Shown here: positions 3,114-27,470 of the stretch, piece after piece | Position numbering within the stretch: the first letter of the stretch is position 1 | Layout: every line of letters begins with the position of its first letter | Source of the DNA: Microcaldota archaeon | GTDB taxonomy: Archaea > Micrarchaeota > Micrarchaeia > Micrarchaeales > CABMGC01 | Assembly: GCA_021802765.1 (NCBI GenBank) | Contig: JAJZRI010000005.1 | Coordinates: 1-38,637 of the forward strand | Direction: 5' to 3' | Length of the DNA: 38,637 nt | Made by a program: the position numbers and the translations under genes | The notes under the pieces: model-generated | Databases searched by the model: none | What the model was told of the DNA's origin: nothing | Seen by the model: only the letters and a program-made list of their open reading frames with translations

Positions 3114-3165
3114 TTAATTGCACAAATAAGATAATTGCTATTAGCGTCTTCTCTTTATCACTCAT
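3064..3165 (-). CDS. Possible 33-residue single-helix membrane protein after the integrase
   Basis: An ORF on the integrase strand starts at ATG 3165, overlapping the integrase stop codon (ATGA arrangement). It encodes a short charged start (MSDKEKT) and one long hydrophobic helix. Its last 50 bases overlap, on the opposite strand, the end of the 2295-3113 gene. The stop-start overlap hints at translational coupling. Length and antisense overlap keep confidence low. Confidence 0.25.
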   Translation of the reverse strand: MSDKEKTLIAIILFVQLIMALLLFLGILFPKLI

Positions 3166-4097
3166 TTAGTCAACCTCCTTTTCATAGCATCAATATCACC
3201 CACACCAACTGAATCTATAGCCTCATAAAGCTCGTGCTTGTCTACGTGGATATATCTGATTGTCGTGCTCGGCTCTGAGTGACGGGCAAACTTAGAAGCT
3301 AATAGGACATTACCATTCGTAGCCCTTGCGAATCTCGTAATTGCAAAGTGCCTCAAGCTATGTGTGGTCAATAAATGCAAGTTCCTTCTTGACCTGCTCG
3401 GGTCGGATTCCTCGCTCGTATCATAAACTTGGTCTAAGCCCGCAAGCTGTATATACTCCCTGAATACCTTGCGTACGTAATTCTGCTCTAAGTAGGGCTC
3501 CTCCCTCTTTGCGTGTGATGAGCTGTCCCTAAAGAAGATGTAGCCTTGGGCTCTCTCGACTTCGCTCTGGTTTGCCCTTACGAACGCTACAAGCTCCTTA
3601 AAGAGCTCTATTGGAACGATTAGGCTGTCGAGCCTGCCCGATTTCTCGCTTCGTAGCTTGAGCTCACGGGTCTTAAAATCGATTTGACTTATGTTTATGC
3701 GTATGACCTCCCCTATCCTGAATCCGAGGTTAGCCATCATGCCGAAAAGAAGCCTATACTTAGCCTTGTCGATTACCCTGAAGAACGCCTGAACCTGCCA
3801 GTCATCAAATCCCTTATTGAGATGCCCATATTTAGGGGTATTTCTGTGCTTGTACGTCTTTACGTAGTACTGCCGTATTATGTGGGTGAGCTCCTCTATC
3901 TGGTGCTTGGCGAGCTTAGGCAGATGCTTCTCTACATATTCCCGCAGTTTCTCGGGTTCACTTATGGCGATGTTTTCGAACCTACTAACTATCTCACGAT
4001 TGTTAGCATTCCCACTACCTATGAGCAGTTCTGATATAAGAGAATTGGTGCTTGGGGTTGCGGGGATTTGAACCCCGACATGCAGGTAACGCCTATT
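3162..4097 (-). CDS. Tyrosine recombinase (SSV-type integrase), C-terminal fragment split at tRNA-Trp
   Basis: The catalytic half is clear: MMANLGFRIGEVIRI carries the first catalytic Arg, TTHSLRHFAITR carries HxxR, and SEPSTTIRYIHVD carries the Tyr nucleophile. The frame is open without a stop from 4097, inside the tRNA-Trp gene, to 3162 (311 codons). There is no ATG, GTG or TTG in frame before the ATGATG at 3740-3735, yet the 119 upstream codons encode plausible SAM-like core-binding protein (for example EKLREYVEKHLPKLAKHQ, KGFDDWQVQAFFRVIDKAKY). This is what is left when an SSV-type integrase gene, whose attP lies inside it, is cut by integration. In the circular element it would regain its N-terminus. 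A short protein starting at 3740 is possible but would lack the core-binding domain. Confidence 0.85.
   Translation of the reverse strand, partial: NRRYLHVGVQIPATPSTNSLISELLIGSGNANNREIVSRFENIAISEPEKLREYVEKHLPKLAKHQIEELTHIIRQYYVKTYKHRNTPKYGHLNKGFDDWQVQAFFRVIDKAKYRLLFGMMANLGFRIGEVIRINISQIDFKTRELKLRSEKSGRLDSLIVPIELFKELVAFVRANQSEVERAQGYIFFRDSSSHAKREEPYLEQNYVRKVFREYIQLAGLDQVYDTSEESDPSRSRRNLHLLTTHSLRHFAITRFARATNGNVLLASKFARHSEPSTTIRYIHVDKHELYEAIDSVGVGDIDAMKRRLTK
4053..4097 (-). other. Presumed att core at the 3' end of tRNA-Trp
   Basis: The integrase frame is open through the tRNA's TPsiC arm and acceptor 3' strand and stops only at a TGA (4100-4098) in the tRNA intron. The recombination core therefore lies within these bases. 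The second copy is not in the window, so the exact limits cannot be set. Confidence 0.55.
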
Positions 4098-4106
4098 TCA
4101 CAAGAT

Positions 4107-4129
4107 TCATAGCTCCAAATCCTAATCAC
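4107..4129 (-). ncRNA. Box C/D-like guide within the tRNA-Trp intron, aimed at wobble C34
   Basis: On the minus strand the intron has a C-like box GTGATTA (4129-4123), a 12-base spacer GGATTTGGAGCT (4122-4111) and a D-like box ATGA (4110-4107). TTTGGAGC in the spacer pairs with the tRNA's own anticodon-loop sequence GCTCCAGA. The fifth base before ATGA falls opposite C34, as the box C/D rule requires. A GGGC-AAC-GCCC hairpin lies just before the C-like box. Euryarchaeal tRNA-Trp introns are known to guide C34 methylation. The boxes here are imperfect, so this is a candidate. Confidence 0.45.
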
Positions 4130-4270
4130 AGGGCGTTGCCCTCATAAATTCAGTTAAACATCTGGAGCCTGCCGCGCTGCCAAGTTACGCCACAACCCCT
4201 TGCCATACTATTAAGAATGCTAATTTTAATAAGCTTGTCAAGAGATAACTAATTGCTGGAGTTGCTTATC

Positions 4271-25017: not shown

Positions 25018-26457
25018 CTATCCCTTGATCACTGCGACAGGAATGTTCCTAGATACAGGCATTGCTATCTTGCTCTCCTTGACCACCTTTACGACTTCGT
25101 CGATGTCCTTGTAGGTCCATTCGGCCTCCTCGCTCACGAGCTTTCTGGTTCTTATCCGTATCGATATTCCCTTCTTCATCAATGAGCTAAAGGTCCTCTC
25201 GGCGGGAATCTCCCTTAGCGCCTGGTGCCTTGACATAACTCTTCCTGCGCCGTGGCATGCCGAACCGAACGTCTCCCTCATCGCCCCCTCACCGCCATAG
25301 AGTACGTAACTTGCGGTACCCATGCTTCCAGGTATCAGGACAGGCTGCCCGACTGAGCGATAGAGTTTAGGCACGTCGGGATGGCCCTTTGCAAATGCCC
25401 TTGTGGCCCCTTTCCTGTGAACATATATCTTCCGGCGTACGCCGTCAACAACATGCTCTTCAAGCTTTACTATGTTGTGGGAAAGGTCATATAGTATATC
25501 CATTCCGAGGGCATCTGCACTCTTGTGGAATGTGTCCTCAAAGCTCTTCCGTATTGAATTGGTTATTATCTGCCGGTTGGTGAAAGCAAAATTTACGGCG
25601 CTCTTCATCGCGGCAAGGTAATTTGCAGCCTCATTGTCACCTATTTTCGCGTAGCTTAGTTCAGGGTCCACAAGACTTATGCCGCTTCTCCTCTGATATT
25701 CTACAAGCGTGCGAAGATAATCGCTGCAGATCTGATGCCCGAATCCTCTTGACCCGGTGTGCACCATTACGACCATCTGGCCTTCATGCAGGCCGAAGGA
25801 CTTCGCAGCCTTTTCGTCTAAAATTCTCTCCACTTTCTGCACTTCTAGGAAATGATTCCCTGCGCCAAGCGTACCAAGCTCATTGAGGCCCCTGGACTTT
25901 GCCTCCTTGCTAACCTTTGAAAAATCCGCGCCGTCCATTCCGCCCTTCTCCTCTATCCTATTGACGTCATCTTCAGTGCCGAATCCTTTCTTTATTATGT
26001 AATCAACGCCTTCCTCGCATATCCTTTCCAGATCGGAATTTGTAAGTCCGATCTGCAGCCTGCTCCCAACTCCGCTGGGTATGTTCTTGAATAGAGCATC
26101 GGAGAGCGCATCCACATTGTCTCTTACCTCCTTCTCGGATAGATTCGTCTTGATAAGGCGCACTCCGCAATTTATGTCAAAGCCCACTGCGCCTGGCGAT
26201 ACAAGACCCTCTTCTGCATCGAAGCCCATCACCCCGCCTATTGGAAATCCATATCCCTCATGGCCATCGGGCATTACCATGACGTTGCCTGCAAGCCCGG
26301 GCAGTGTCGAGGCGTTTGCTGCCTGCTGCAAAGTATGGTCAGAACGCATCTTCTCCAGAAGTAGCTTGTTTGTATAAAGCATAACGTCAGTTCTCATGCC
26401 CGGCATCGCAGATTTCCTGACAGCGTATTTGTTCTCGTTAATTTTCTCAATTTCCAT
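25018..26457 (-). CDS. rtcB: RtcB, RNA-splicing ligase
   Basis: GTP- and Mn-dependent ligase that joins 2',3'-cyclic phosphate and 5'-OH ends; in archaea it seals tRNA exons after intron removal. Motifs: VMVMPDGHEGYGFPIGGV, GAVGFDINCGVRLI with the metal-binding Asp and Cys, LGAGNHFLEVQKVE, VMVHTGSRGFGHQ, GSMGTASYVL, and SACHGAGRVMSRHQA with the guanylylated His. About 479 residues, full length, no intein. ATG 26457 is chosen over GTG 26466. TATA-like GATATATAAATC lies at about 26488-26499. Two intron-bearing tRNA genes in the window are natural substrates. Confidence 0.96.
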   Translation of the reverse strand: MEIEKINENKYAVRKSAMPGMRTDVMLYTNKLLLEKMRSDHTLQQAANASTLPGLAGNVMVMPDGHEGYGFPIGGVMGFDAEEGLVSPGAVGFDINCGVRLIKTNLSEKEVRDNVDALSDALFKNIPSGVGSRLQIGLTNSDLERICEEGVDYIIKKGFGTEDDVNRIEEKGGMDGADFSKVSKEAKSRGLNELGTLGAGNHFLEVQKVERILDEKAAKSFGLHEGQMVVMVHTGSRGFGHQICSDYLRTLVEYQRRSGISLVDPELSYAKIGDNEAANYLAAMKSAVNFAFTNRQIITNSIRKSFEDTFHKSADALGMDILYDLSHNIVKLEEHVVDGVRRKIYVHRKGATRAFAKGHPDVPKLYRSVGQPVLIPGSMGTASYVLYGGEGAMRETFGSACHGAGRVMSRHQALREIPAERTFSSLMKKGISIRIRTRKLVSEEAEWTYKDIDEVVKVVKESKIAMPVSRNIPVAVIKG

Positions 26458-26571
26458 CGTATGCACAGGTTTTCCTTCAGGAAGATTTATATATCAGAAA
26501 ATGCCCCATTAACAGGCCAGATATAAATCGAGATGAAACTTTAAATATAAGTGGTTGTAATTACTAGGTGT

Positions 26572-26673
26572 GCAGGGATGGCGGAGCCCGGTCAAACGCG
26601 GCGGACTCAAGATCCGTTGGCTTAGGCCTGCGGGAGTTCAAAAAACATTGAATAAATCTCTCTCCCTGCACCA
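26572..26673 (+). tRNA. tRNA-Leu (CAA) with an apparent 14-base intron in the T-loop, CCA encoded
   Basis: Acceptor GCAGGGA/TCCCTGC, anticodon stem GCGGA/TCCGT with loop CTCAAGA (CAA), long variable arm, T stem GGGAG/CTCTC, A73 and an encoded CCA (26671-26673). The T-loop should be seven bases (TTCAAAT) but is 21 (26637-26657). TTCAA and TTGAA can pair around an AAAACA loop. Removing 14 bases restores TTCAAAT and a normal 85-base tRNA plus CCA. The exact cut sites are ambiguous in the A-rich loop. TATA-like TTAAATATAA lies at 26541-26550. Confidence 0.9.
26637..26657 (+). other. Expanded T-loop containing the putative 14-base tRNA intron
   Basis: 21 bases separate the two T-stem strands. The hairpin TTCAA-AAAACA-TTGAA lies inside, giving a possible splicing-endonuclease substrate; RtcB next door would ligate the exons. 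Introns outside position 37/38 are known in some archaeal tRNAs; one this short in the T-loop is uncommon. Confidence 0.65.
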
Positions 26674-26705: not shown

Positions 26706-27470
26706 ATGCCTAAACCTTTGAGAAAAACGAGCGGAAGAAGCAAGCCTACGAATAAGAATTCCAGATCTGCGGCAAAGAAACCCATAAGAAGGCCTGCAAA
26801 GAGAGCCTCTGCTCCAAAGGCAAAGCTAAAGGAGAAGGTCCTTTTTGAGATAGAACATTATCCGCAGACGGAGGAGTTCACAAGCTCTGCTGCATGTGCA
26901 ATGATGGTCCTCAGGCATATAGACTCCAACTTCAAGATGAAGAAGGAGGAGGAGTACAGCATATGGCAGGAGGCGGTTAATGGAAGCGTATGGCACGGCT
27001 CAAAGTATGGCCTTGCGCACTCCATAGCAAAGAGAGGAGGCAGGGTAAAGATAATCAGCAATACGAAGGATGAGGGGTACGACAAGAAGCTTGCAGTTTA
27101 CGAGAACGTAAACCTTGATACCCTCACGTCGGCTTGGAACGAGGTGAAGAAGAAGTCCGAGGACGCGAAGATACCTGAGGAGTTCACCAGCAACGTCTCG
27201 GTGAACGCGATAAAGAAGGAGCTCTCTACAAATCACATACCCATAGTGCTAATAGATGCCAATGCGTTGAATCCGTACGTGGAATCATCGCCGCACTGGA
27301 TAGTGGTCAAGGGCTATGACAAGGATGCCTTTTACATAAATGACCCTTATTCTGACAGCACGATAACGCTCGACCATGACGCCTTCAAGCAGGCTTTGGG
27401 ATTCGACAACAATTTCCACATGGTACTCACAGACGTGAGGCACAGGCCTTCAGACAAAAAGAGAAGGTAG
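26706..27470 (+). CDS. Peptidase C39-like family protein with basic N-terminal tail
   Basis: A 254-residue protein. Residues 1 to about 42 are very Lys/Arg/Ser/Pro-rich (RKTSGRSKPTNKNSRSAAKK). The rest resembles C39-like cysteine-protease folds: a Cys at the start of a helix (FTSSAACAMMVLRHID), a His in SPHWIVVKGYD and an Asp in FYINDPYSD. The usual Gln before the Cys is not obvious, so activity is uncertain. No signal peptide or neighbouring ABC exporter is seen, so it is not a typical bacteriocin-processing C39. It starts 32 bases after tRNA-Leu. Confidence 0.65.
   Translation: MPKPLRKTSGRSKPTNKNSRSAAKKPIRRPAKRASAPKAKLKEKVLFEIEHYPQTEEFTSSAACAMMVLRHIDSNFKMKKEEEYSIWQEAVNGSVWHGSKYGLAHSIAKRGGRVKIISNTKDEGYDKKLAVYENVNLDTLTSAWNEVKKKSEDAKIPEEFTSNVSVNAIKKELSTNHIPIVLIDANALNPYVESSPHWIVVKGYDKDAFYINDPYSDSTITLDHDAFKQALGFDNNFHMVLTDVRHRPSDKKRR

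Follow-up and report, generated by a model that had tools for sequence, protein, structure and literature searches.

A 14-nucleotide insert held at one T-loop site of tRNA-Leu(CAA) across an order of Micrarchaeota is probably a non-canonical archaeal tRNA intron

The tRNA-Leu(CAA) gene of a Micrarchaeota genome contains, inside its T-loop, 14 bases that are most probably a non-canonical archaeal tRNA intron located between positions 58 and 59 and spliced out of the precursor, a reading based on comparison of related genes to which we give a probability of about 0.94. The gene lies at 26572-26673 on the forward strand of the window, which is the whole 38,637-nucleotide stretch of DNA that was analysed. 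This is a known kind of intron and not a new phenomenon; its site is unusually well conserved across the order, and the turnover of its body is fast.

A tRNA match is found at 26572-26670 (+) with the T-loop insertion included (Rfam RF00005, 42.5 bits, E 7e-6), the anticodon is CAA, and the variable arm is long and of the leucine type. As encoded, the T-loop is TTCAAAAAACATTGAATAAAT and has 21 nt; minus 14 nt it becomes TTCAAAT, which confirms what had been noticed from the sequence alone. ARAGORN reports no tRNA at this locus in the unedited window, but when positions 26642-26655 are removed and the genomic flanks kept on both sides it calls tRNA-Leu(caa) at the same place. The insert thus hides the gene from a common tRNA finder, and its removal from an otherwise complete tRNA gene restores the consensus, as judged by ARAGORN and by intron-free relatives. 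Exon 1 (26572-26641, +) comprises the 5' strand of the acceptor stem, the D arm, the CAA anticodon arm, the variable arm, the 5' strand of the T-stem and the T-loop bases T54, T55, C56, A57 and A58, and is supported by the Rfam match, by 60 relatives and by compensatory changes in the stems. The predicted 14-nt intron, AAAACATTGAATAA, occupies 26642-26655 (+), and exon 2 (26656-26670, +) supplies A59, T60, the 3' strands of the T-stem and acceptor stem and the discriminator A73. Upstream, at 26535-26549 (+), GAAAC-TTTAAATATA is a probable BRE and TATA element by its sequence and spacing. Adjoining the discriminator is an encoded CCA (26671-26673, +), which several members of the genus also have, which was not found in many relatives, and which is mostly absent from the other tRNA genes read in the genome; it may be there by chance.

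The gene was matched in all 60 of the nearest relatives searched, with the T-loop extended in most of them. When the whole class was searched with a sequence pattern, the interrupted gene turned up in 134 of the 164 genomes of this order within the Micrarchaeota, spread over two families, with inserts of 10-21 nt always at the same site; judged by this recurrence, the insert is not a product of chance. No interrupted gene was detected in the 137 genomes of other orders of the same class, a zero that is limited by the conserved exon sequence that the pattern demands. Because the pattern already demands GRRY, that set is excluded from the pairing statistics given below. Uninterrupted genes, with the T-loop TTCAAAT or TTCGAAT, occur in eight genomes from four genera of the order and also in several that do not belong to it, Fermentimicrarchaeum among them, and the remaining genomes of the order, many of them incomplete, match neither pattern. 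On this distribution the simplest history would be that the intron was gained once, at the root of the order or close to it, and lost a few times afterwards. Between sister genomes the body of the intron changes fast and the site and pairing are kept. Four assemblies (G237, G182, G184 and G227) each contain two copies of the gene, all interrupted, and the two introns of G237 differ from each other; these duplicates perhaps come from mixed bins.

A comparison of 66 distinct spliced sequences, all of the same length, shows almost complete pairing in the acceptor, anticodon and T stems, together with compensatory exchanges; at the third pair of the anticodon stem, counting from the loop, G-C has for instance become A-T, 29 sequences against 37. 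Such changes in the exon stems indicate that selection acts on the gene as a tRNA; on this comparative evidence it is maintained as a working tRNA and so must be processed somehow.

The structure of the intron was derived from 94 distinct introns of 10-21 nt (mode 13 nt), taken from two sets of relatives not selected on intron sequence; the parsed 'intron' of locus L096 was left out since it belongs to a different tRNA-Leu. In every case the loop continues with AA after TTC, and T60 is preceded by A. Towards the 3' end of the intron, four bases read GAAC in 70 introns, GAGC in 9, GGAC in 8 and GAAU in 7, and in 94/94, a count from related genomes and hence not of independent events, they can pair with the invariant exon bases G53UUC56, every departure from GAAC giving a G-U pair. 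In the window the two strands of this central helix are at 26636-26639 (+, exon) and 26650-26653 (+, GAAU). An inner stem, closed by a pair between intron base 2 and the base before GAAY, forms in 81/94 introns where 61.6 would be expected by permutation, and with one intron per genus in 31/39 against 20.6, a value reached in none of 20,000 permutations; its A-T pair is replaced by T-A, G-C and C-G in relatives. This covariation speaks for a first bulge of three bases, A57 A58 N, placed in the window at 26640-26642 (+, A57 A58 A), with the inner stem-loop AAACATT following at 26643-26649 (+). The second bulge, A A A59, is placed at 26654-26656 (+); its first two bases vary among relatives (AA, AC, TA), and A59 never does. 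In the thirty genes whose intron starts with T the 5' site cannot lie further downstream, and endings in AC rule out 3' sites further upstream, so that 58/59 is the single position consistent with all of the introns.

A second bulge of three bases requires the T-stem to slide by two, pairing 49-52 with 60-63, and all four of these pairs are possible in 92 of the 94. The outer stem could be slid, or unslid with a five-base bulge; we infer the slid form, and in that register a central helix of four pairs can form, flanked by the bulges AAN and NNA, of three bases each. Energy folding of the isolated arm does not pick this strict bulge-helix-bulge, which is less stable than the open loop in 81 of the 94, and folding to minimum energy often yields a longer hairpin; comparison was accordingly used as the guide to the fold instead. 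Either the enzyme or the fold of the tRNA must then favour the strict form, or a bulge-helix-loop is used. The sequence-only reading had proposed a spliced T-loop intron folded by a TTCAA/TTGAA hairpin. The comparison of site, pairing and covariation strongly supports the intron; it does not support that exact hairpin, which is what energy minimisation gives for the window sequence, whereas the conserved fold is the four-pair helix with its two three-base bulges.

The genome encodes the enzymes that such an intron would need. Its single splicing endonuclease has 388 aa and is of the epsilon-2 (ARMAN-2) type, aligning over nearly its full length to ARMAN-2 EndA (PDB 4fz2/9w2k, E 7e-147), with duplicated units seen as two PF01974 and two PF02778 stretches. 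Alignment to 4fz2 shows the Tyr-Lys pair of the specificity loop, present as GSYKAS, conserved at the position of Y160/K161, residues required for cleavage by the ARMAN-2 enzyme (PMC12397907). By orthology the endonuclease would be a homodimer of broad specificity. An enzyme of broad specificity had been expected from the sequence alone, and the type encoded agrees with this; however, a near-strict bulge-helix-bulge needs no relaxed enzyme. A gene for the RtcB tRNA-splicing ligase (25018-26466, -; Pfam PF01139, E 3e-162) is divergent from the tRNA gene and 105 bases away. The adjacency does not hold as a rule, since RtcB stands beside only 48 of 110 loci and the intron is present in nearly all. 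Nor is a joint origin of the intron and the epsilon-2 enzyme supported: an endonuclease frame of 385-430 aa is also present in many genomes outside the order.

From the insert, its conservation, its pairing and covariation, together with the two enzyme genes and the failure to find an alternative gene, we infer cleavage, ligation and exact cut sites as follows. In the precursor, G53UUC56 would pair with GAAY close to the 3' end of the intron, and the outer T-stem would shift by two bases, leaving the bulges AAN and NNA on either side of the four-pair helix. The epsilon-2 endonuclease would cut each bulge between its second and third base, as described in the 9w2k structure paper (PMC12397907). 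In the window this rule predicts cuts between 26641 and 26642 and between 26655 and 26656, giving exactly TTCAA plus AT, and ligation of the exons by RtcB would produce the T-loop TTCAAAT.

A variant that overlaps with the splicing reading is that the intron is excised from a relaxed bulge-helix-loop: TTCAA would pair with TTGAA, and the 5' cut would fall in the loop or at the end of the helix. It is the fold that energy calculation prefers for the window sequence, and bulge-helix-loop substrates are cleaved in vitro by the ARMAN-2 enzyme (PMC12397907). The base facing A57, however, is not T in 26 of the 94 introns, and in 13 of those 26 it matches intron base 2, as in an inner stem with a free three-base bulge; we consider the relaxed form possible but distinctly the less likely substrate.

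Bases 59 and 60 of a tRNA are normally flipped out, and the insert sits exactly there. It could be argued that it is simply retained, the mature tRNA tolerating a long T-loop with a small hairpin, and general knowledge of tRNA suggests that the T54-A58 contact and those of 55/56 with the D-loop could survive. Against this, what chiefly constrains the sequence of the insert is its pairing with G53UUC56, which would wreck the T-loop fold of a mature tRNA, its length spans 12-21 nt inside the window's own genus, intron-free relatives have a normal loop and the splicing enzymes are encoded; retention is very unlikely. Less credible still is a dead copy, leaving UUG to tRNA-Leu(UAA) or to a second, undetected tRNA-Leu(CAA). 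The host genome (872 kb) is 81% complete, so a further gene might lie in the missing part, and decoding of UUG by tRNA-Leu(UAA) is possible in principle. However, 134 genomes have interrupted copies only, and the exons hardly vary, with compensatory changes in the stems. A functional second gene, with this one silent, had been named beforehand as what would refute splicing; none was found in this 81%-complete genome, and no uninterrupted copy accompanies the interrupted gene in any of the 134. A group I intron can be dismissed, since 14 nt compares with about 200 nt or more including a catalytic core, and there is no Rfam intron match in the window.

Fujishima 2011 reportedly describes the tRNAs of ARMAN-2 as much disrupted by introns. 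The published lengths of archaeal tRNA introns run from 11 to 129 nt, and their median is 15 (PMC3218864), and the 14 nt seen here fall inside that range. The sequence-only reading had placed this intron among the shortest, which does not hold for a length near the median when relatives reach 10-11 nt, the 10-nt form at L054 lying just below the range. Its description of the site as unusual is weakened too: the intron is in the T-loop, outside the anticodon loop, and T-arm introns are already known in archaea (PMC12397907, PMC6379350, PMC3293823). The non-canonical introns of the Thermoproteales, Caldiarchaeum and others are likewise short, of bulge-helix-bulge form and outside the anticodon loop, T-arm included. 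Unlike those, the intron described here is held at one site in one tRNA across a DPANN order while its body turns over. The tRNA introns of Candidatus Micrarchaeum acidiphilum (ARMAN-2) come from the same lineage, with the same epsilon-2 type of enzyme as the window genome; that enzyme and the multiple introns of ARMAN-1/2 tRNAs have been published (PMC4033280), as has relaxed-motif cleavage by the ARMAN-2 enzyme (PMC12397907). Permuted tRNA genes of Thermofilum pendens and Cyanidioschyzon merolae have junctions at 59/60 (PMC3218864, PMC3978253), also in the T-loop and processed by the same kind of machinery; those genes are permuted, whereas tRNA-Leu(CAA) has a simple intron, one base away. 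A limited literature search, which is weak evidence, found no description of a tRNA-Leu(CAA) intron in Micrarchaeota.

Why the intron persists is a separate matter. It is conceivable, if doubtful, that it has been kept across the order, down to a 10-nt form shorter than the published minimum of 11, for a function such as shielding a preferred integration site at the 3' end of the tRNA or acting as a checkpoint before T-loop modification. The idea that tRNA introns guard against integration has been discussed (PMC3218864), and tRNA genes of this lineage are targeted by integrating elements, as shown by a 9-kb integrase-bearing element in tRNA-Asn of the same genome. About 100 natural intron variants at one site, together with a solved enzyme from the same lineage (4fz2, 9w2k), form a series that could test the smallest epsilon-2 substrate and the reason why a non-canonical intron persists.

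The tRNA-Asn element (L253, G000:C6:245500-256500) is marked by a 55-base partial copy of the tRNA 9 kb from the full gene and encodes an integrase, a cytosine DNA methylase, a Vsr endonuclease, an ATPase and an AlbA_2/Schlafen protein. In the window, a short integrase (3162-3740, -; 192 aa, Pfam Phage_integrase) is probably the remnant of another integrated element. It lies a few hundred bases from a tRNA-Trp(CCA) gene (4053-4199, -) whose anticodon loop is interrupted by a long intron; the tRNA-Trp intron of other archaea holds a C/D box guide RNA (PMC3218864). In genome G040 (C1:206247-210964; L090, L091 and L099), several partial 3' ends of another tRNA-Leu stand in a row within 5 kb, looking like attachment sites from tandem integrations.

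Directly downstream of tRNA-Leu(CAA) is a C39-peptidase-like gene (DUF3335; 26706-27470, +; Pfam PF11814), which follows the tRNA at 105 of 110 loci, often at a distance of tens to a few hundred bases, suggesting a shared transcript; it is absent beside the four uninterrupted loci outside the order. On the other side of the tRNA, RtcB is itself interrupted by inteins in several relatives, after about residue 95-100 at L157, L166 and L183, one of them a short intein, and by its gap the RtcB of L152 appears similar.
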